From Herbidospora yilanensis (GTDB taxonomy: Bacteria > Actinomycetota > Actinomycetes > Streptosporangiales > Streptosporangiaceae), in assembly GCF_001570565.1 (NCBI RefSeq), contig NZ_BBXE01000016.1:248001-312000 (forward strand): a stretch of DNA of 64,000 nucleotides, in the 5' to 3' direction. The translations under genes were made by a program, and so were the position numbers. The stretch's first letter is position 1. Each line of letters opens with the position of its first letter. The notes beneath the pieces were generated by a model that worked only from the letters and a program-made list of their open reading frames with translations, was not told the origin of the DNA and made no database searches. Of this stretch, positions 5,649 to 40,878 are shown piece after piece.

Positions 5649-6118
5649 TTGCGCAATTCGATGACGGTCTTGCCGATGCGGATCGGAGTCCCGAGAGGCA
5701 CCGGCGTCGGGCGGGTCACTTTGGAACGGTCGAGGTAGGTTCCGTTGGTCGAGCCGAGGTCTTCCACGATCCACTGGCCGTCCTGAGGGAAGAGCTGGGC
5801 GTGGCGGCTGGACGCGTAGTCGTCGCTGAGGACGAGCGTCGAGTCAGTGGCCCGGCCTATCGTGATCGGCTGTTCGGTGAGGTTGATGATGGTCCCTTGC
5901 AGGGGGCCACCTGTGACGACCATCTGACGTGGCTCCCCCCTCTTGGGCTTGGCAGGAATATTCTTCGCCGGTTTCGTGGGCAACTTCCGGGGATTGGCGG
6001 AAGGAGCCGTTCGCGGACCGAACAAGTCTGTCCGGATCACGCCGACCGCGGCAATGACGAAGAACCAGAGCACCGCCAGGAAGGCGAGCCTGATCAGCAG
6101 CAGCGCGAGCTCGGACAT
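5645..6118 (-). CDS. fhaB: FHA-domain membrane protein FhaB (FipA)
   Basis: 157 residues. One N-terminal membrane helix (about 5-27) is followed by a basic Pro/Lys linker and a C-terminal forkhead-associated domain. FHA signatures are ITIGRATDSTLVL, SSRHAQLF and DLGSTNGTYL, which bind phosphothreonine. In mycobacteria FhaB is a PknA/PknB substrate linking kinases to division and SEDS proteins. Its size matches the family (about 155 residues). It overlaps pstP by four bases and lies 17 bases after fhaA. Confidence 0.94.
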   Translation of the reverse strand: MSELALLLIRLAFLAVLWFFVIAAVGVIRTDLFGPRTAPSANPRKLPTKPAKNIPAKPKRGEPRQMVVTGGPLQGTIINLTEQPITIGRATDSTLVLSDDYASSRHAQLFPQDGQWIVEDLGSTNGTYLDRSKVTRPTPVPLGTPIRIGKTVIELRK

Positions 6119-6135
6119 GGACCGTTTGTCTACCT

Positions 6136-6879
6136 TTAATCGCGTCTGAACACCAGGGTCGTACGCCCCAGTGTCACCCTCGTCCCGTCTTGCATCTCGA
6201 TCCTGCGGACCGGCTGCCCGTTGACGAAGGTGCCGTTCGTGGAACCGAGATCAACCAGAACGACCTGCTGACCCTCGACCCGTAGCTCGGCATGATGCCG
6301 CGATACGCCCGGATCCACCAGCCGTAGATCGCAATCGGTCCCGCGGCCCAGCAGAGTGACCGGTGTGGTCAGCTCGTAGGACCGCTGGCCCTGCGGGTCG
6401 TCCTGGGTGGACACCAGCAGGCGGGGCCGGCCGCCGAACGCGCTGCTCTTGCGAGCGGCGGGCACGTCGCTGACCGGTTGTCTGATCTCGTCTTGCTCGA
6501 CCGTCGCGCCGCGGATGACCCCGGACCTGATCCGGAACAGCCCGACCGCTAGGTCTTCGGCGATCTCGAAGCGCACCCGGACGGGTCCGACGAACGAGTA
6601 GCCCTGCTCCTTGGCGTATTCCCGAGCGAGGTTGGCGAGCTCGTGGCTGATGCTGTCGGCATAGACCTCGAGCCGCTCGTTGTCGGTCGTGGACAACTCC
6701 ACCACGAAGTCGTTGGGCACGAGCGTTCTGCCCTGGGCGACGATCGCGGCACGGTCGTCCATCTCCCTCTGCACCGCGCTGGCGACCTCTACGGGCTGAA
6801 GGTCGGACTTGAACGCACGTGCGAAGGCCCCCTCAACCAAACCTTCGAGCCTGCGCTCGAAGCGCTGAAGGACTCCCAC
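6136..6879 (-). CDS. fhaA: FHA-domain protein FhaA with DUF3662 domain
   Basis: 247 residues. The GTG at 6879 is chosen because GGGAGG lies about seven bases upstream and the product then starts VGVLQRFERRLEGLVEG, the usual opening; an in-frame ATG at 6900 would overlap that ribosome-binding site. Residues about 1-125 form DUF3662 (FhaA N-terminal domain). The C-terminal FHA domain carries TLLGRGTDCDLRL, SRHHAELRV and DLGSTNGTFVNG. It probably reads phosphorylation of envelope proteins such as MviN, as known in mycobacteria. The linker is much shorter than in mycobacterial FhaA. First gene of the seven-gene cluster; a TACGAT -10-like element lies upstream near 6914-6919. Confidence 0.93.
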   Translation of the reverse strand: MGVLQRFERRLEGLVEGAFARAFKSDLQPVEVASAVQREMDDRAAIVAQGRTLVPNDFVVELSTTDNERLEVYADSISHELANLAREYAKEQGYSFVGPVRVRFEIAEDLAVGLFRIRSGVIRGATVEQDEIRQPVSDVPAARKSSAFGGRPRLLVSTQDDPQGQRSYELTTPVTLLGRGTDCDLRLVDPGVSRHHAELRVEGQQVVLVDLGSTNGTFVNGQPVRRIEMQDGTRVTLGRTTLVFRRD

Positions 6880-6987
6880 CGGGTACCTCCCTTCCTCCAT
6901 CGTCTACACGGATCGTATCCGGGTTCAGTGGCACTGGCGGATCCGTGCTAACCTTTCCAGGCAGCCGAAAAGAGGCGCACCCGTAAG

Positions 6988-7070
6988 GGGCAAGTGGCGG
7001 AATGGCAGACGCGCACGGTTCAGGTCCGTGTGTCCGAAAGGACGTGGGGGTTCAACTCCCCCCTTGCCCA
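6988..7070 (+). tRNA. tRNA-Leu (anticodon CAG)
   Basis: Class II tRNA with a long variable arm. The acceptor stem GGGCAAG (6988-6994) pairs with CTTGCCC (7063-7069), discriminator A at 7070. The anticodon stem CACGG/CCGTG encloses TTCAGGT with CAG at 7021-7023. The T arm reads GGGGGTTCAACTCCCCC. CCA is not encoded after the discriminator. A TAACCT -10-like hexamer lies at 6949-6954. Decodes CUG, the dominant Leu codon in high-GC genomes. Confidence 0.96.
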
Positions 7071-7081
7071 CAGAGAATCGA

Positions 7082-7124
7082 CCTCGCTGGTCGGAAGGAA
7101 AACCTTCCGCAGGCGGGGTTTTTT
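7082..7124 (+). terminator. Intrinsic terminator after tRNA-Leu
   Basis: Perfect inner stem CGGAAGG/CCTTCCG around AAAA (7092-7109), an imperfect outer stem (7082-7090 with 7110-7118), then six T residues at 7119-7124. Placed 12 bases after the tRNA, this is a classical rho-independent terminator. Confidence 0.88.
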
Positions 7125-7320
7125 CGTTGTGGGGCATAACGTCCCTGATGGCACGGCGGATCCTCCGTAGTCTGAACGGCGTTGATCCATATTCTCCGAA
7201 GCGCGGCTTTCAAACCGCTTGCACCCGGGTTCGCCGGAAAAAGTTTGCCCGAAGTCTCGCCATGCGAGACGGATTGTCCCGGAATATGGTCCACCCAAGT
7301 GGCCACAGCGACTCCTGAGG
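7125..7320. other. Spacer without a convincing gene; holds a 7-bp inverted repeat
   Basis: About 195 bases of lower-GC sequence between the tRNA-Leu terminator and the hairpin-rich block. Open frames here have no recognisable protein features. A perfect inverted repeat GTCTCGC-CAT-GCGAGAC occupies 7254-7270 and could be a regulator site or a small hairpin. Nothing else is assignable. Confidence 0.4.
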
Positions 7321-7463
7321 CCAGACGGACCCGCGAGGGCGCGCCCCCGTCTGGACTGAGGAGCGCAGGAGAGCGAAGCGAACCGGAGCGACGAGGGAAG
7401 ACGGGGGCTGAAAGCGCCCGAGCCCCCGCGCCGCAGGCGCGGGGGTCGGACGGAGCGCGGGGA
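7321..7463. repeat. Hairpin-rich REP-like intergenic block / terminator of CorC operon
   Basis: Three structured parts are seen. CCAGACGG at 7321-7328 pairs with CCGTCTGG at 7347-7354. Then comes a stretch rich in GAGCG/GAAGCG-type words (about 7359-7398). Last is a perfect 10-bp hairpin, CCCCCGCGCC-GCA-GGCGCGGGGG, at 7423-7445. It ends 18 bases before the stop of the minus-strand CorC-type gene, so on that strand it can terminate the transcript. The arrangement resembles dispersed intergenic repeats of high-GC actinomycetes; copies elsewhere could not be checked. Confidence 0.5.
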
Positions 7464-8462
7464 CTACACAGTCAGCAGCTCACCGATCAGCGACGTCACG
7501 CTGATCTCGCCGACGACCTCGCCCCGCTCGTCGACCACCAGTCCGAGCTGCGCCCGCGCGTCCTGCAGCGCGGTCACGGCGTCGGGGATGGGCGTCGAGA
7601 CGTTCAGGGTCGGTACGGGCGTCGCCAGCTCCCCAGGGGTCATCTCGGGATGGACCAGGCTGTCGCGGACGTGCAGCACGCCTTTGACGCCCTCGGGAGA
7701 GGTCACCAGCATGCGCAGCCGGTTGGCCGCAACCGCCGTCTTGTGCACCCGGTCGGCCGGGGCGTCGGCGGCGATCGTGACCGCGTCGGCGAGCGGCGTC
7801 ATCAGCCGCTCGACCGGCTGGTTCTGCACCCGCAGCGCCCGGGTGAGCAGGTCGTGCTCGGCGCGGTCGAGCATGCCCATCCGGCCCGATTCGGCCACCA
7901 GCACGGCGAGCTGGTGGGGCGTGCGGGCGGTGGCCAGCTCGTCGCGGGGGCGTACGCCGCACAGGCGCAGCAGGCCGTTGGTCAGCCCGTTCAGGCCGGC
8001 CAGCAGGGGGCGGGCCAGCCAGACGAAGCCGCGGAACGGCAGTGCCAGGGCCAGCGCGGCCGGCTCGGGGTGGGTCAGGGCCAGCGACTTGGGCGCCATC
8101 TCCCCGACCACCATGTGCAGGAAGGTGACGATCCCGAGCGCCAGCACGTACGAGATCGCGGTTCCCACACTCTCGGGCAGGCCGCCCAGGAGCGGTTCGA
8201 GCAGGTGGTGCAGGGCCGGTTCGGTCACCATGCCCAGGCCCAGCGAGCAGAGCGTGATGCCGAGCTGGGCGCCGGCCAGCATGAGCGAGAGCTGGCGGCT
8301 GCCCCGCAGGGCGGCCCTGGCGGCGATCCGGGCGAACGGGCCGGTGGCCGACTCTTCGAGGCGGTGGCGGCGGGCCGAGATGACCGCGAACTCCGCGGCC
8401 ACGAACAGCCCGTTCAGCGCCAGCAGCACGACGCCGAGCAGAAGTGCCATCGTGGAGCTCAC
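7464..8462 (-). CDS. CNNM/CorC-family membrane protein with CBS domains (second of tandem pair)
   Basis: 332 residues. The GTG at 8462 overlaps the upstream gene's stop as GTGA; the open frame continues upstream only as a shadow of that gene. The N-terminal DUF21/CNNM membrane domain has about four helices (VVLLALNGLFVAAEFAVISA, the GAQLGITLCSLGLG segment, and HMVVGEMAPKSLAL). It is followed by a CBS pair. The C-terminal CorC/HlyC domain of the longer paralogue is missing. The family includes magnesium/cobalt exporters and proteins affecting Mg2+ homeostasis. Substrate here is not known. Probably acts with its operon partner. Confidence 0.85.
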   Translation of the reverse strand: MSSTMALLLGVVLLALNGLFVAAEFAVISARRHRLEESATGPFARIAARAALRGSRQLSLMLAGAQLGITLCSLGLGMVTEPALHHLLEPLLGGLPESVGTAISYVLALGIVTFLHMVVGEMAPKSLALTHPEPAALALALPFRGFVWLARPLLAGLNGLTNGLLRLCGVRPRDELATARTPHQLAVLVAESGRMGMLDRAEHDLLTRALRVQNQPVERLMTPLADAVTIAADAPADRVHKTAVAANRLRMLVTSPEGVKGVLHVRDSLVHPEMTPGELATPVPTLNVSTPIPDAVTALQDARAQLGLVVDERGEVVGEISVTSLIGELLTV

Positions 8463-9880
8463 ACCGGCCTCCCCTGGAACAGGGCCGAGAAGAGCTCGGG
8501 CGCGTAGTCCTGCGGGCCGGTGTTCTCGTGGGCGGGCTCCTCGACCGCCGCCTCGGCGGACGGGGCCGCGATGGCGAGGCGGATCATCTGGGGCACCCGC
8601 CGGTGCACGTCGAGCACGGTCAGCAGCGCGTGGCGGGGCTCCTCGTCGTCGTCGAGCAGGTCGTGCTCCTCGACGGTCGCGACGGTCACCGCGTCGCCGG
8701 GCTCGGCCATGCGGCCCAGCTCGGCCAGCACGAGGCCGCCGACGGTCTCGTAGCCGTCGTCTTCTGGCAGGGTGACGCCGGTGGCCCGCTCGACCTCGTC
8801 GATGCGCAGGGTGCCGGGCACGTCCCAGGAGCCGTCGGGGTTGGCGGTGACGCCGAGGGGCTCGGGGTCGTTCTCGTCGACCAGTTCGCCGACGAGTTCC
8901 TCGGCCAGGTCCTCGATGGTGACGACGCCCGCGAGGCCGCCGTACTCGTCGATGACGCACGCGAAGGTGCCGCCGGACATGCGGGAGAGCAGGACCGGCA
9001 CCGGCAGGGTGGCCGGGACCAGCAGCGGGGTGCGCATGATCCCGGCGATGGTCGCCTCGCCCTCCCGGCCCAGGTAGTCGAGCAGGCCGACGACGCCCAC
9101 GACGTCGTCGGTGTCGCTGCCGAGCACGGGGTAGCGGGAGTGGCCGTGGTCGCGTACCGCGTCGACCAGGGAGGACACCGGCGCGTCGGCGTGCAGGGAG
9201 ACCACGCGGGGGCGGGGGACCATGACGTCCTCCGCGGCGCGGTCGCCGAAGTCGAGGGCGCGCTCCAGCAGGTCGGCCAGCCGGGGCGGCAGGTCGCCGG
9301 CCTCCCGGGAGTCGTCGACGATGCGGTGCAGCTCCTCGGGGGTGGCGCCGTGTTCGAGTTCCTCGACGGGCTCGATGCCGAACAACCGGACGAGCCGGGT
9401 GGCCGAGCCGTCGAAGAACCGGATCAGCGGCCCGAAGATCTTCAAGTAGAGGAGGGTCGGGCGCGACAACCACATCGCGACCGGCTCGGGCCGGGCGATG
9501 CCCAGGTTCTTGGGCGCCAGCTCGCCGAGGATCATCTGGATGATCGTGGCGATGGCGACGCCGATCGCGACACTCACCCCGGGCACGGCCCCCGGCGGCA
9601 GCCCGAGGTCTTCGAGCGGGCCGCGGAAGGACACCGAAATGGCGGGTTCCGCGAGGAAGCCGACCAGCAGGGTGGTGACGGTGATGCCGAGCTGGGCGCC
9701 CGACAACATGAAGGAGAGCCGGCCGGTGACGTCGAGGGCCCGGCGGGCGGCGGGATTGGTGTCGGCCTGCTGGCGCAGCAGCGCTCGGTCGGCGGCGACG
9801 TAAGCGAACTCCTGGGCGACGAAGAATCCGGTCGCCAAGGTGAGGAGCAGGACGGCGAGGAGGCCGAGGGCGATGGTCAT
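8459..9880 (-). CDS. CNNM/CorC-family membrane protein with CBS and CorC_HlyC domains
   Basis: 473 residues with the ATG at 9880. The N-terminal DUF21 domain (LTLATGFFVAQEFAYVAADR, GAQLGITVTTLLVGFLAEP, ILGELAPKNLGIARP) is followed by two CBS motifs (about 205-330, including DYLGREGEATIAGIMR) and a C-terminal CorC_HlyC domain (about 345-430, with GYETVGGLVLAELGRM). Family members are linked to Mg2+ and other divalent-cation efflux; this assignment is by family only. The next gene is a shorter paralogue overlapping by four bases. The roughly 240-base upstream region is shared with the divergent LCP gene. Confidence 0.87.
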   Translation of the reverse strand: MTIALGLLAVLLLTLATGFFVAQEFAYVAADRALLRQQADTNPAARRALDVTGRLSFMLSGAQLGITVTTLLVGFLAEPAISVSFRGPLEDLGLPPGAVPGVSVAIGVAIATIIQMILGELAPKNLGIARPEPVAMWLSRPTLLYLKIFGPLIRFFDGSATRLVRLFGIEPVEELEHGATPEELHRIVDDSREAGDLPPRLADLLERALDFGDRAAEDVMVPRPRVVSLHADAPVSSLVDAVRDHGHSRYPVLGSDTDDVVGVVGLLDYLGREGEATIAGIMRTPLLVPATLPVPVLLSRMSGGTFACVIDEYGGLAGVVTIEDLAEELVGELVDENDPEPLGVTANPDGSWDVPGTLRIDEVERATGVTLPEDDGYETVGGLVLAELGRMAEPGDAVTVATVEEHDLLDDDEEPRHALLTVLDVHRRVPQMIRLAIAAPSAEAAVEEPAHENTGPQDYAPELFSALFQGRPV

Positions 9881-12854: not shown

Positions 12855-13178
12855 ATGACTCTGCGGGACGTGCAACCGACCGGTGTGCCTGAAGGCGCTT
12901 ACCTGCTTGACGTGCGTGAACTCGACGAGTGGCGGGCCGGCCACGCCCCCTCGGCGACCCACATCCCGCTCGGCCAGCTCCAGAACCGGGTGGGCGAGGT
13001 GCCCCAGGGCGAGCCGGTCTACGTGATCTGCCGGGTCGGCGGCCGGTCGGCCCAGGCGGCGACGTGGCTGAACCACGTGGGCTGGGAGGCCGTCAACGTC
13101 GGCGGCGGGATGCAGTCGTGGGCGGCGTCGGGGTTGCCGATGCAGAGCGAGAGCGGCCAGCCGCCCTACGTGGCCTGA
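12855..13178 (+). CDS. Rhodanese-like domain protein
   Basis: 107 residues, a single rhodanese domain. It has LLDVRELDEWRAGHAPSATH, then the active-site loop VICRVGGRSAQAATWL with catalytic Cys58, then GGGMQSWAASGLPM. Such small rhodaneses move sulfane sulfur or act as thiol relays. Partner not known. TACACT at 12842-12847 ends seven bases before the ATG, suggesting a leaderless transcript. The end overlaps the convergent CqsA-like gene by 13 bases. Confidence 0.9.
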   Translation: MTLRDVQPTGVPEGAYLLDVRELDEWRAGHAPSATHIPLGQLQNRVGEVPQGEPVYVICRVGGRSAQAATWLNHVGWEAVNVGGGMQSWAASGLPMQSESGQPPYVA

Positions 13179-14371
13179 CCTCTGGCGACCGGGCGGCGGG
13201 TGGAGAGCCAGCCCGCGATGCCCGCCTCGTCTCTGACCACCGCGCAGGCATGGAGGATCTGTTCGGCCTCGGCGTCGGTCAGGCCCGCGTGGAGTGACAG
13301 GCGCAGCAGCGTCCGGGTGACCGAGGTCGCCGGGGGGACGAAGACCGCGCCGAACACGTCGTGCCGTTCCAGCAGGTCGCGCAGGAGCATCACGTCGGCC
13401 TCCCGGCCGACCTCCAGGGCGATGATCTGCTCGGTGCCCCCGCCCAGGTCGTAGCCGAGCCCGGCCAGTTCGGGCCGCAACCACGCCGTCAGCTCGCGTA
13501 GCCGGGCCCGGCGGCCTTCTTCGTGTTCGACCAGTTCCAGGGCCGCGGCCAGCAGCGCGGTGTCGTGGGGCAGCAGGGCGCTGCTGAAGACGGCCGGGCC
13601 GGCCTGGTATTTGAAGTAGTCGACGAAGCCGGGATCGTCGCAGACGATCAGCCCGGCCCGGCCGGGGATCGCCTTCGACAGGCTGACCGTCCGGAACGCC
13701 ACCCGGCCCTCCAAGCCCTCTGACGCCACCAGGCCCTCGCCCCGGGGACCGTGGGTGCCCACGGAGTGGGACTCGTCGACGACCAGCAGGGAGTCGTGCC
13801 GCTCGGTCACCTCGGCGAACTCCGCCAGCGGGCAGCGGGAACCGTGGGAGCTGTAGACCGAGTCGACGACCACGACCCCGGGACCGTGCCGGTCGAGCCG
13901 GGACGCCAGATGGACCGGGTCGTTGTGCCGGAAGATCTTCATGGGGGCGCCCGCGAGCTGGACGCCGGTCCGCAGCGAGGCGTGCGCCCGCTGGTCGAGG
14001 TAGACCGGGACGTCGGGCCCGGCGATCACCTGGATCAGGCCCGCGTTGGCCATCCAGCCCGACTGGCAGAGCACCCCGGCCGCCGCCTTCAGGTGGCGCG
14101 CGAACGCGCCTTCCAGCAGGGTCTGCGGGTGGTCGTCGCGCAGGAAGGGCGCCGCCTGCAGGGGCGCGGTCTCCCCGTCGAGTGACCGGGCCATCGCGTC
14201 GACCAACCGGGGATGGCCGCTGATGTTCAGGTAGTCGTTCCTGGTCAGGACGATCGAGGACGGGCCGGGCGCGCGGCCCTGGAGCGCCCGGCGGCCGGCC
14301 CAGGTCGCGGTCACCCGGTCTCGATGGAAGGCGTCGAGCCGGCTCCGGAGGTGGTCGCGCGCCCCGCCCAC
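13166..14371 (-). CDS. CqsA-like PLP-dependent alpha-oxoamine synthase
   Basis: 401 residues, fold-type I aminotransferase of the alpha-oxoamine synthase group (BioF, KBL, CqsA). The pattern follows the Vibrio autoinducer synthase CqsA more closely than BioF: LTRNDYLNISGHP, LCQSGWMANAGLIQ, DRHGPGVVVVDSVYSSHG, LLVVDESHSVGTHGP, PLP-lysine Lys233 in VSLSKAIPGRAG, and FSSALLPHDTA. CqsA (389 residues) joins an aminated C3-C4 donor to an acyl-CoA, giving an alpha-aminoketone that becomes a hydroxyketone signal. The GTG start lies one base after the EF-hand gene stop, so translation is probably coupled. No CqsS-like sensor is in the window. Product here is inferred, not known. Confidence 0.82.
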   Translation of the reverse strand: MGGARDHLRSRLDAFHRDRVTATWAGRRALQGRAPGPSSIVLTRNDYLNISGHPRLVDAMARSLDGETAPLQAAPFLRDDHPQTLLEGAFARHLKAAAGVLCQSGWMANAGLIQVIAGPDVPVYLDQRAHASLRTGVQLAGAPMKIFRHNDPVHLASRLDRHGPGVVVVDSVYSSHGSRCPLAEFAEVTERHDSLLVVDESHSVGTHGPRGEGLVASEGLEGRVAFRTVSLSKAIPGRAGLIVCDDPGFVDYFKYQAGPAVFSSALLPHDTALLAAALELVEHEEGRRARLRELTAWLRPELAGLGYDLGGGTEQIIALEVGREADVMLLRDLLERHDVFGAVFVPPATSVTRTLLRLSLHAGLTDAEAEQILHACAVVRDEAGIAGWLSTRRPVARGQAT

Positions 14372-14372
14372 G

Positions 14373-14915
14373 TCAGATCCGCCCGAGCAGCGCCGAGCCG
14401 TACGCCTCCGGGTCTTCGCTGCAGAAGTAGCCCTCGACGGCGCGGTGGACCTCGCCGAAGGACAGGGCGCCCGCGCCGGTGGTGTCGAGCTGGTCGAAGG
14501 CCTCCTGGCCGTCTTCCTCGGGGAGGCCGAAGGCGCTGTTCATGGTGGCGACGTATTCGGCGCGGGAGACGACGCCGTCGCCGTCGGTGTCGGCGAGCTG
14601 GAGGAACGCCTGGGCCACGGGCTGGACCCGCTGGTAGCCGTCGGGCAGGCCGAGGATCGTCTTGCGGTGGGCCGTCAGGTATTCGTGGAAGTCGAGGCCG
14701 GCGTCGCCGTCGAGGTCCATCGGCGCGTAGACCTCCTGCCACAGGGTGGCGTAGCTCTGCCTGATGGCGATGCTCTGCTCGGAGGTCGGGCTCCAGCCGA
14801 AGGCCGCCGCCGCCCGCCCGGCCGCCGCGGTGAAGTCGGCGAAGGTCAGGACACTGTCGCCGTCGGCGTCGAGCAAGCTGAAGAATTTGTGCATCTTGCG
14901 GCTGTAGTGATCCAT
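14373..14915 (-). CDS. EF-hand calcium-binding protein (calerythrin-like)
   Basis: 180 residues, close to calerythrin (177). Four EF-hand loops occur at about 16-27 (DADGDSVLTFAD), 67-78 (DLDGDAGLDFHE), 109-120 (DTDGDGVVSRAE) and 144-155 (DTTGAGALSFGE). The first three hold the usual Asp and Glu ligands; the fourth lacks acidic residues at loop positions 3 and 5 and probably binds weakly or not at all. No signal peptide or membrane segment, so cytoplasmic. The stop lies one base before the CqsA-like start, suggesting one transcript. It may be a Ca2+ buffer or sensor. Confidence 0.9.
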   Translation of the reverse strand: MDHYSRKMHKFFSLLDADGDSVLTFADFTAAAGRAAAAFGWSPTSEQSIAIRQSYATLWQEVYAPMDLDGDAGLDFHEYLTAHRKTILGLPDGYQRVQPVAQAFLQLADTDGDGVVSRAEYVATMNSAFGLPEEDGQEAFDQLDTTGAGALSFGEVHRAVEGYFCSEDPEAYGSALLGRI

Positions 14916-14995
14916 GAGGCTCCCTCTCGGTGAGACGACGATTACCGAGAGTAAGTAGGCGTGATCGTGCTGTTAATGGCCTCGGGGATACGGTT

Positions 14996-15493
14996 TCACA
15001 TCCGGTAGTAGCCGAGCAGGTCGTCGAGCGCGTTCACGGGGTCGACGCGGACGATGGTGCCGGTCTTGAACGCGTTGATCATCTTGCCGTCGCCGATGTA
15101 GACGCCGACGTGGTGGGTGCGCTTGGCCGTGCCGAAGAAGACCAGGTCCCCCGGGGCCGGAACGGGGGCCGGGCGCATCCGGCGCAGGTGGTCGTCGGTG
15201 GTGCCGGGGCCCAGCACGTCGTGGCCGTAGGCGATCTCGTAGATCCAGCGGGTCAGCCCGGAGCAGTCGAGGCCGGTGGTCCGCTCGGCCGGGCAGGGCT
15301 TGATCTCGCCCCGGTAGCCCCTGCAGGTGCCCGTCGACGGCCCCGCGCTGCCCGCGTGGCCGCCGCCCCACGAGTAGGGATACCGGCCGACCAGCGCGTA
15401 CGCCGACGCGAGGATCTGGTCCCGTTCGTCGGGCCGGGGAGCGGACGCCACCGCCAAGACCAGGATCAGTGCCATGATCGCCGAGATTTTCAT
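14996..15493 (-). CDS. Secreted NlpC/P60 peptidoglycan hydrolase
   Basis: 165 residues with a short signal peptide (about 1-18, MKISAIMALILVLAVASA). The NlpC/P60 domain fills the rest. Catalytic Cys is in LDCSGLTRWIY, and catalytic His is in THHVGVYIGDGKMINA. It probably cleaves the peptide stem of peptidoglycan. The insert with three extra Cys around GTCRGYRGEIKPCP is unusual and may form a disulfide. The EF-hand gene starts 80 bases downstream on the same strand, so all three could be co-transcribed. No long leader that would hold a ydaO (c-di-AMP) riboswitch was recognised. Confidence 0.9.
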   Translation of the reverse strand: MKISAIMALILVLAVASAPRPDERDQILASAYALVGRYPYSWGGGHAGSAGPSTGTCRGYRGEIKPCPAERTTGLDCSGLTRWIYEIAYGHDVLGPGTTDDHLRRMRPAPVPAPGDLVFFGTAKRTHHVGVYIGDGKMINAFKTGTIVRVDPVNALDDLLGYYRM

Positions 15494-18614: not shown

Positions 18615-18686
18615 ATCTTTGTCCGGTTGTGGGGCATCATGGAGGCCGCACGCCGGGGTCGATCCCGGGCGTGTTCTCAACTTCAG

Positions 18687-18776
18687 ACCGCGGGAGCTTG
18701 GGCGTAACCAGGCTGAGAGGGCGACCAGCGTCGCCGACCGCATGAACCTGTCCGGGTAATGCCGGCGTAGGGAGCG
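18687..18776 (+). promoter_or_regulatory. TPP riboswitch (THI-box)
   Basis: The universal thi-box core is clear: CTGAGAGG at 18713-18720, then ACCGCATGAACCTGTCCGGG, then GTAATGCCGGCGTAGGGAG ending near 18774. P1 pairs CGGGAGCTTGGG-side bases with the tail. It sits directly before the permease gene, and the GGAG at 18771-18774 that closes the motif is also that gene's ribosome-binding site. This suggests translational repression when thiamine pyrophosphate is high. Confidence 0.95.
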
Positions 18777-18780
18777 TGTG

Positions 18781-20148
18781 ATGACCGCCGTCGTCGACTC
18801 CGAAGCACCCCTCACCCTCGACGAGGCTCCGCCGAAGACTCTCGGCCTCCTCGACCAGGGCGCCCTGTGGGCCAACCTCGGGGTGTCGCTGCTCGGCTTC
18901 TCGGGAGCGATCGCGCTCGTCAACCCCCTCGGCGACCGTCCGCTGAGCTTCGTCGCGGCCCTGACGGCCGCCGTGGTGGGCAGTCTCATCGGCACGGCCA
19001 TGGTCGGCCTGTCCGCCATCCCGGGCACCCAGACGGGCGCCCCGGCGATGATGCTGCTCAGAGGGCTTTTCGGGGCGAAGCTCTCCTATCTCCCGAGCGT
19101 GCTGAACATCATCCAGATGCTGGGCTGGGGGGCCTTCGAGCTCTGGGTCATCGCCCAGGGCGCCCAGGCCATCGCGGGCCAGTTCGGCCTCACCGTGCCC
19201 TACGAGGTGTGGGTGGTCATCGCCGGGTTGATCACCACGGCGCTCACGATCAGGCCGCTGGGGGCGGTGCGCATCCTGCGGCGGTACGTCACCGTCGGCG
19301 TGGTCGTGGCGATGATCTATTTCGCGTACGAGCTGATCTCGCGAGGGCCCTCGCTGGCGGCCGGCTCGTGGGAGGCGTTCACGCCGGCCGTCGACTACGT
19401 CATCGCGCTGAGCGTGTCGTGGGTGCCGCTGGCGGCCGACTTCTCGCGTTTCTCGAAGAGTTCGCGGGCGGCGTTCGGCGGGGTGGTCGGTGGTTACACG
19501 ATCGCCCAGGTGGCCTGCCTGGCGCTGGGGATCGCGGCGCTGGCACTGGTCGGGAACGACACGAACCAGGTGTGGGACCCGTTCGTCACCGCGTCGCTCG
19601 GCGCGGTCTTCTTCGGGATCCTGGTGCTGCGCGAGACCGACCAGTCGTTCGTGAACGTCTATTCGGTGACGATGTCCTTGCAGAACCTGGTGCCGAGGGT
19701 CGACCGGCGCGTTCTCTCGGTCGTCATCGGGGTGCTGGTCACGTTGCTGGCGATCTTCGTGAGCGCGGACACGTACTCGGCGTTCCTGGGGATCATCGGT
19801 GCGGTGTTCGTGCCGATGTTCGCCGTGCTGGTGGTCGACTACTTCCTGCTCGGCGGTTCGCGCGGCTGGGACACCTCCGACCACGCGCCGTCGCGGTGGC
19901 TGATGACGGTGCCGTGGCTGCTTGGGTTCGCCACCTGGTGGATGCTCGGGGCGTTGCCCGACGTCGGGTGGTGGGAGGCGATCTGGACGTCGGCCCGCGA
20001 GGCCGTCGGGTTCGCCCCCGCGCCGTGGATGAGCGCCGCGCTCGGCTCGTTCCTGGTCGCCGCGCTGGTCACGCTGGCGATCGGAGCCTCACGCGGCGCC
20101 CGGTCACGACGTCTATCTGATGCGGGTGAAGGCGACCGCCGCGGCTGA
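18781..20148 (+). CDS. cytX: NCS1-family permease, probable hydroxymethylpyrimidine transporter (CytX-like)
   Basis: 455 residues with about twelve membrane helices, of the purine-cytosine permease (NCS1) family. The ATG at 18781 is preferred over the GTG at 18778 because GGAG lies six bases before it. Typical elements are WANLGVSLLGFSGAI, IPGTQTGAPAMMLLRGLFG and a GWGAFELWVIAQG helix. The TPP riboswitch directly upstream argues for uptake of the thiamine pyrimidine precursor rather than cytosine. The C terminus overlaps the convergent proline-rich gene by 36 bases. The transporter class is firm; the substrate is inferred. Confidence 0.9.
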   Translation: MTAVVDSEAPLTLDEAPPKTLGLLDQGALWANLGVSLLGFSGAIALVNPLGDRPLSFVAALTAAVVGSLIGTAMVGLSAIPGTQTGAPAMMLLRGLFGAKLSYLPSVLNIIQMLGWGAFELWVIAQGAQAIAGQFGLTVPYEVWVVIAGLITTALTIRPLGAVRILRRYVTVGVVVAMIYFAYELISRGPSLAAGSWEAFTPAVDYVIALSVSWVPLAADFSRFSKSSRAAFGGVVGGYTIAQVACLALGIAALALVGNDTNQVWDPFVTASLGAVFFGILVLRETDQSFVNVYSVTMSLQNLVPRVDRRVLSVVIGVLVTLLAIFVSADTYSAFLGIIGAVFVPMFAVLVVDYFLLGGSRGWDTSDHAPSRWLMTVPWLLGFATWWMLGALPDVGWWEAIWTSAREAVGFAPAPWMSAALGSFLVAALVTLAIGASRGARSRRLSDAGEGDRRG

Positions 20149-40789: not shown

Positions 40790-40878
40790 GGAGAGCTCGC
40801 CTAGTGGACGATGGCGGCGGTCTTGAAAACCGCTAGGGGCGGTGACGTTCCTCGTGGGTTCGAATCCCACGCTCTCCG
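40790..40878 (+). tRNA. tRNA-Ser (anticodon TGA)
   Basis: Class II tRNA of 89 bases. Acceptor GGAGAGC (40790-40796) pairs with GCTCTCC (40871-40877), discriminator G at 40878. The anticodon stem GCGGT/ACCGC encloses CTTGAAA, with TGA at 40824-40826. T arm GTGGGTTCGAATCCCAC is complete. TAGGGT at 40752-40757 may be its -10. CCA not encoded. Decodes UCA and, by wobble, UCG. Confidence 0.96.

Follow-up and report, generated by a model that had tools for sequence, protein, structure and literature searches.

The window analysed here is a stretch of 64,000 nucleotides from Herbidospora yilanensis (contig NZ_BBXE01000016.1, positions 248,001 to 312,000), to which all coordinates refer unless stated otherwise. 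On its minus strand lie an EF-hand gene and, directly after it, the gene of a pyridoxal phosphate (PLP)-dependent synthase of the CqsA/LqsA/JqsA type. Our analysis indicates that this pair is real and is conserved in part of an actinomycete branch of these enzymes, as a minority arrangement. The data as a whole are best explained, with a probability of about 0.5, by a two-gene module in which a sensorless CqsA-type aminoketone synthase is joined by a dedicated Ca2+ protein partner. The features of the locus are as follows.

13166-14371, minus strand: CqsA/LqsA/JqsA-type PLP-dependent alpha-oxoamine synthase, 401 amino acids, GTG start (NF005526, match to CqsA in the Protein Data Bank, tree, diagnostic residues, model)
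14372: one-base gap between the EF-hand stop codon and the synthase GTG; by coordinates the same gap in all three Herbidospora carriers
14373-14915, minus strand: SCP-type (calerythrin/CabD-like) EF-hand protein, 180 amino acids (Pfam EF-hand, 3aka, loop pattern, profile, model)
14924-14951: inverted repeat CTCTCGGT-N12-ACCGAGAG, directly 5' of the EF-hand start
14996-15493, minus strand: NlpC/P60 gene (Pfam PF00877)
13179-14995: presence/absence unit made of both genes and the leader (four of seven Herbidospora genomes have a clean empty junction)

A preliminary description of this DNA had placed the synthase one base after the EF-hand gene and had listed four CqsA-like motifs. The coordinates of the open reading frames (ORFs) agree with the first statement, and SGWMANAG, RHGPGVVVVDS, DESHSVGTHGP and SLSKAIPGRAG are all present in the 401-residue ORF. 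The one-base spacing suggests translational coupling of the two genes. At its other end, the synthase gene overlaps a rhodanese gene, the last codons (13166-13178) lying on the end of the latter.

The synthase scores 447.4 bits against the NCBIfam model of alpha-hydroxyketone autoinducer synthases (NF005526), above the curated cut-off of 428, and thus belongs to this family. It falls outside BioF (TIGR00858, 209.5 bits against a cut-off of 426.45) and KBL (NF005394, 161.7 against 460; TIGR01822, 131.9 against 493), and its scores in the SPT and ALAS models are likewise far under the cut-offs. In a sequence search of solved structures, Vibrio cholerae CqsA came first (E 1.7e-77) and SPT next (E 6.4e-36). 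The predicted model, made from an alignment of 33 sequences (predicted local distance difference test score, pLDDT, 90.9), superposes on CqsA 2wk7 with Z 50.3 and a root-mean-square deviation (rmsd) of 2.1 A over 384 residues, the next enzyme having Z 46.3; these and the later structure comparisons give ranks among the listed matches, and families outside the list may also match. We also built a maximum-likelihood tree of 69 rows, with V. cholerae CqsA and JqsA in it and LqsA and SPT left out. It separates 61 CqsA-type rows from eight BioF/KBL/ALAS-type rows (support 100/100) and places the window synthase in a core clade of 29 actinomycete rows (100/99), which is itself nested among JqsA-like sequences of Gram-negative bacteria. 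The enzyme therefore lies inside the CqsA/JqsA clade, and not within BioF or KBL, the placement that the preliminary description had named as fatal to its proposal.

The residues of the enzyme agree with this assignment. We defined 29 diagnostic positions as those conserved in 23 Gram-negative CqsA-type rows and not in the eight outgroup rows, leaving out three enzymes with no JqsS-type sensor in their stretch (L106, L112 and L120). The window synthase keeps 24 of them, with substitutions at the other five (Q72, R134, S175, V204, S232), and the outgroup rows keep 0 or 1; all 30 positions shared by the two sets are retained. Five Streptomycetaceae enzymes that adjoin a related EF-hand gene keep 24 to 28. 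Lysine K233 of the window enzyme aligns with K236, the PLP-binding lysine of V. cholerae CqsA (PMC3376566), and the whole protein is 49% identical to its Janthinobacterium lividum homologue. On family score, tree, residues and fold, CqsA-type chemistry is probable. By analogy with CqsA (PMC3376566), the enzyme most likely condenses acyl-CoA with S-adenosylmethionine (SAM) or a small amino acid, giving an alpha-aminoketone or an enaminone.

Among the relatives scored, two fell under the NF005526 cut-off, a Nonomuraea enzyme (369.4 bits) and an Actinomadura enzyme (L053 in genome G278, gene 8738-9799; 317.1 bits). The latter has the PLP lysine replaced (K233R), keeps 16 of the 29 diagnostic positions and is possibly a non-catalytic relative; by their sequences, some Actinomadura CqsA relatives look decayed. 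The three enzymes left out of the diagnostic set, from Nitratireductor (L106) and two Pseudomonas (L112, L120), have all 29 diagnostic residues, yet no JqsS-type sensor in their stretches.

The neighbouring gene encodes an SCP-type EF-hand protein, as its four units, compact fold and near full-length match show. It had been described as having four EF-hands. Its profile and predicted fold do fit a four-unit protein of this type, but only three loops match the Ca2+-loop pattern that we made for the purpose, the fourth (LDTTGAGALSFGE) being degenerate; three such loops predict a Ca2+ binder. The best solved match of the single sequence is Streptomyces coelicolor 3aka (E 2.3e-19), named CabD (PMC10574481). 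A profile search with 20 sequences ranked silkworm juvenile hormone (JH) diol kinase, CabD and calerythrin first, followed by a partial match to the calmodulin fusion construct 4il1 (profile positions 60-161), then by a second JH diol kinase and calexcitin; ordinary calmodulins ranked after these. The predicted model (pLDDT 92.9) is closest in fold to calexcitin (Z 21.6), the Renilla coelenterazine-binding protein (Z 21.1, rmsd 2.5 over 174 residues, 20% identity) and JH diol kinase (Z 20.0), ahead of aequorin and CabD (both Z 17.3) and the best calmodulin (Z 13.3). The protein is probably cytosolic, since its frame runs directly into the first EF-hand helix.

Comparison of seven Herbidospora genomes showed that the pair behaves as one unit at this site: three genomes have both genes, four have neither, and none has a single one. 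In the four empty sites the end of the rhodanese gene (window 13179-13196) joins the end of the NlpC gene (window 14990-14996) across an interval of 0 to 15 bases. A tree of the rhodanese-Fpg block that flanks the site interleaves carriers with non-carriers, so that at least three changes are required, and the nearest relative of the window's genome in this block has no pair. The empty sites and the interleaved carriers therefore indicate that both genes were gained or lost together. The NlpC/P60 gene, which the preliminary description had put upstream of the pair, does lie there but stands outside the unit: it is found in all seven genomes, with or without the pair, and was rejected as a third member in favour of a bystander.

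The pair also goes beyond this strain, contrary to a possibility raised at the outset, as it occurs in three of seven Herbidospora and in six of eleven Streptomycetaceae genomes with a CqsA-type gene. A survey of the Streptosporangiales had been proposed, and we searched 297 genomes of the order; here, as in all our genome searches, scoring covered a limited set of first-look candidates in each genome. At 260 bits or more we counted 44 CqsA-type genes in 41 genomes (two of them with less than 1 kb of flank on one side), and 14 further genomes matched only at 158 bits or less. The pair was found in a minority: 3 of the 44 genes have an EF-hand neighbour, all in Herbidospora. CqsA-type genes are rare in Streptomycetaceae (3 of 392, 9 of 394 and 2 of 395 genomes in three overlapping draws, the last not made up of Streptomycetaceae only and its two matches already known), giving 11 distinct genomes that include S. 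natalensis and Streptacidiphilus jiangxiensis. In six of them an EF-hand gene lies directly beside the synthase, in divergent orientation; the EF-hands of five are mutually related (46-74% identity) and the sixth (genome G1350) is distant. A model made from seven of the eight related paired EF-hands of Herbidospora and Streptomycetaceae gives these eight 265-316 bits, the other EF-hands of the carrier genomes 149 bits or less and the G1350 neighbour 50. In a sample of the phylum, 1 of 396 genomes matched at E 1e-70, the window's own. A scan of named genomes gave at least 592 pattern matches, from which the best 80 of 560 confirmed relatives were used; among these, none of the 70 non-actinomycete loci has an ORF containing at least two EF loops.

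Some further arrangements were seen at the Streptomyces and related loci. Streptomyces G1200 (locus L180) has a second, tandem EF-hand gene by the paired one (5785-7176 and 7381-7947 of its stretch, both minus strand). In Streptomyces G935 the CqsA-like gene occurs twice with equal score (L156 and L158), at mirror positions near both ends of one contig, so the copies probably lie in the terminal inverted repeats of a linear chromosome. G935 (L181, 6585-8294, minus strand) and two Nonomuraea loci (L045, L090) also have a polyprenyl-synthetase gene at most 5 kb away from the CqsA-like gene. A separate CqsA-like clade (L183 and L184 of Streptomyces, L052 and L055 of Actinomadura), split from the window's clade with support 100/99, has a common downstream ketoacyl synthase gene and in part a flavin amine oxidase gene, and by its gene content looks like a specialised-metabolite cluster.

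To compare the neighbours of the synthase we used 34 actinomycete loci, taking matches of E 1e-8 or better within 5 kb and dropping ORFs that overlap the homologous span of the synthase by more than 60 bases. The EF-hand is the sole neighbour family that the window's Herbidospora group has in common with another group, and the Herbidospora EF-hands match those of five Streptomycetaceae loci in 15 of 15 hits. Both halves of the actinomycete core clade contain pairs. EF-hand matches number 1 to 12 per genome in the nine carriers, and three Actinomadura genomes have none; if 1.1 kb per gene is assumed, the chance of an EF-hand neighbour for one genome is 2.6e-4 to 3.5e-3. At the highest EF-hand density, and with just two events counted as independent among 12 clades, the chance is about 8e-4, a rough figure that assumes independence and the same gene length. 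Functional coupling of the EF-hand protein and the synthase is favoured by the one-base gap in all three Herbidospora carriers, the all-or-none distribution in seven genomes, the Streptomycetaceae pairs and the sole common neighbour family, and is probable on these genomic grounds.

Several observations weigh against such a module. Most relatives lack the partner: there is no EF-hand neighbour at 41 of the 44 order-sample genes, in five of the 11 Streptomycetaceae genomes, at the Nocardia locus or adjoining the sister Actinomadura and Nonomuraea enzymes. The window's genome itself has a second CqsA-like gene (L001/L039; G000:C18:112635-113804, minus strand; 458.8 bits to NF005526), a paralogue of 51-54% identity present in six of the seven Herbidospora genomes, and no EF-hand gene lies in its surrounding 17-19 kb stretches. 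The EF-hand neighbour in G1350 scores 66.1 and 50.2 bits, against at least 184 and at least 265 for the others. Adjacent genes can go in one deletion, which weakens joint presence and absence as evidence of coupling, and only two weak positions in the alignment are specific to EF-linked synthases. The EF-hand tree is too weak to decide on a single origin of the paired EF-hands (20% bootstrap, AU test p 0.437); it supports neither an ancestral pair nor one formed twice, and co-inheritance is not shown. Regarding the function of the EF-hand protein, calexcitin ties with the coelenterazine-binding protein in the fold ranking, and SCP proteins can act as plain Ca2+ buffers according to the account in PMC10574481.

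The synthase had been proposed to make a signal, and a search for its sensor was suggested. As query we used the N-terminal sensor part of Janthinobacterium JqsS. In the best 80 relatives of the named-genome scan, 64 of the 70 loci from outside the actinomycetes have a relative of this part. Among the six negative ones, three (L075, L102, L137) have stretches cut by contig ends, with the regulator present and the kinase part in one, and the other three (L106, L112, L120) have neither regulator nor kinase part in the stretch. Such a sensor was found in none of the 10 actinomycete loci of the same set, none of 20 stretches from Streptosporangiales, 6.9 to 19 kb long (five coinciding with named loci), and none of 17 more stretches, mostly of Streptomyces and Actinomadura (one being the window's locus and ten being from Streptomyces or Nocardia). 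No JqsR-type regulator was found near the window synthase, and no JqsS-type sensor near the second CqsA-like gene. A JqsS-type sensor elsewhere in the window's genome was rejected as well, as all 30 matches to JqsS are confined to the kinase core, from residue 185 or later. The synthase therefore does not qualify as a member of a cqs/lqs/jqs quorum-sensing system, no linked or encoded six-helix sensor kinase of the CqsS/LqsS type being detected; with no CqsS/LqsS/JqsS-type sensor in the actinomycete stretches tested, quorum sensing is unproven and the proposed signalling role is not supported. A sensor of another type is possible in actinomycetes.

These results set the locus apart from the systems described so far. 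Alpha-hydroxyketone signalling has been elucidated in Gram-negative species, in which synthase and sensor kinase are linked (PMC3566124, PMC3376566). Homologues were predicted for CPR and DPANN genomes as well, and 51 of these adjoin a kinase whose profile is CqsS-like (PMC7567580). The window enzyme resembles the CqsA/LqsA/JqsA synthases in its NF005526 score, PLP lysine, diagnostic motifs, fold and clade position, and differs from them in its Gram-positive host, its EF-hand partner, the five substitutions among 29 positions and the fact that no sensor or regulator was found nearby. JqsA of Janthinobacterium, functionally studied as part of JqsA-JqsS-JqsR, is a synthase of the same type that is linked to sensor and regulator (PMC3566124, in the portion used), whereas the window synthase is linked to an EF-hand gene. 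The EF-hand protein has a near full-length likeness in sequence, profile and fold to calerythrin and Streptomyces CabD, for which the consulted portion of PMC10574481 mentions no enzyme partner, whereas the window protein is encoded next to a synthase. Among openly licensed papers we found none on a CqsA with EF-hand combination and no actinomycete CqsA report was apparent, so the pair is not in print as far as this literature shows.

In the module that we propose, the synthase would, like CqsA, join acyl-CoA, or acyl carrier protein-bound acyl groups, to SAM or an amino acid and so yield an alpha-aminoketone or enaminone of hydrophobic character, and the EF-hand protein would be its dedicated intracellular partner, making the availability of the product dependent on Ca2+. 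The partner may take up this unstable, hydrophobic product, or the acyl precursor, shield it and release it when Ca2+ rises, as the Renilla coelenterazine-binding protein does. Instability is known for the enamine product of CqsA (PMC3376566, in the part consulted), and coelenterazine is stored in the Renilla protein and made available under Ca2+ control, in the account drawn from PMC7590018. The likeness of the bacterial protein to this animal Ca2+-triggered carrier is one of fold only, and ligand binding is suggested by analogy. We lean towards product binding and Ca2+-gated release over calmodulin-like activation because the compact SCP fold includes Ca2+-triggered ligand carriers. The coelenterazine-binding protein, JH diol kinase and aequorin all stand above the best calmodulin in the fold ranking; calexcitin, at the top of it, is not known as a small-molecule carrier. 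The preference is slight, a simple buffer being conceivable too, and the Ca2+-gated carrier is a tentative suggestion. A still bolder form is quite unlikely: a Ca2+ rise would free the acyl-aminoketone of the sensorless synthase from the SCP-fold protein, which held it inside the cell, and the hypha would thereby convert an ion signal into a diffusible chemical one.

The lobes of calmodulin wrap around their target, and the SCP-type fold is compact. This difference speaks against the reading in which Ca2+ regulates the synthase directly through the EF-hand protein as its regulatory subunit, the Ca2+-loaded or Ca2+-free form of which would bind the enzyme and alter activity or stability. The one-base gap with probable translational coupling would fit a stoichiometric complex, both proteins look cytosolic and the pair is gained or lost as a unit; but the enzyme shows no surface specific to EF-linked members beyond the two weak positions, a similar C-terminal tail exists in the Janthinobacterium enzyme, whose stretch shows no EF-hand ORF, and the 41 order-sample relatives without an EF-hand neighbour would have to do without the subunit. 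We regard direct regulation as unlikely. The enzyme might instead make a specialised metabolite or building block that is no signal, with the EF-hand protein as a Ca2+ buffer or developmental protein under shared regulation. The failure to find a CqsS/LqsS/JqsS-type sensor in the window's genome or near the tested actinomycete loci fits this idea, as do the metabolite-like clade of Actinomadura and Streptomyces and the description of calerythrin and CabB as buffers in the material taken from PMC10574481. That clade, however, lies outside the window's own, and a general buffer need not track one enzyme through two orientations and a clean presence/absence site; we consider this explanation possible but doubtful.

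Chance or hitch-hiking, in which common actinomycete EF-hand genes came to lie beside CqsA-type genes with no functional link, draws on the many relatives without the pair, the 12 EF-hand matches in Streptomyces G1200 alone and an EF-hand tree that does not show a single origin. It has to account for six of 11 Streptomycetaceae together with three Herbidospora carriers, for the lack of any other neighbour family common to both groups within 5 kb and for the low figure of the rough model for two independent hits, and is very unlikely. An even weaker case can be made that the enzyme is related to BioF or KBL and serves another function, such as biotin synthesis or threonine breakdown: superfamily and fold are the same, but the fully supported split in the tree, a BioF score less than half of the cut-off and the diagnostic residues, 24 against 0 or 1, make it extremely improbable.

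The inverted repeat at 14924-14951 is mostly preserved in both other Herbidospora carriers and is possibly an operator or a hairpin of the 5' untranslated region. It was not seen as such in the five divergent Streptomycetaceae intergenic stretches compared, and an operator common to both groups was therefore rejected. A sigma-70 scan gave no promoter match, a scan that says little for a high-GC actinomycete. A defence system was rejected also, PADLOC giving no match for the EF-hand, synthase and NlpC/P60 proteins. Elsewhere in the window, a thiamine pyrophosphate (TPP) riboswitch (18680-18791, plus strand, Rfam RF00059, 61.7 bits) precedes a Transp_cyt_pur permease gene (18778-20148), which is for this reason probably a thiamine-precursor transporter; the GTG listed as its start, at 18778, lies within the riboswitch, and the true start is likely further downstream. 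Two tRNA genes (6988-7070 and 40790-40878, both plus strand) have the same Rfam score of 52.5 bits.

A sensorless actinomycete branch of CqsA-type enzymes, part of it with an EF-hand gene, offers a handle on the role of these enzymes in Gram-positive bacteria. The pair likewise gives a handle on whether EF-hand proteins of bacteria have specific small molecules or enzymes as their targets or serve as buffers, and in the actinomycetes that carry it calcium may control the enzyme or its product.

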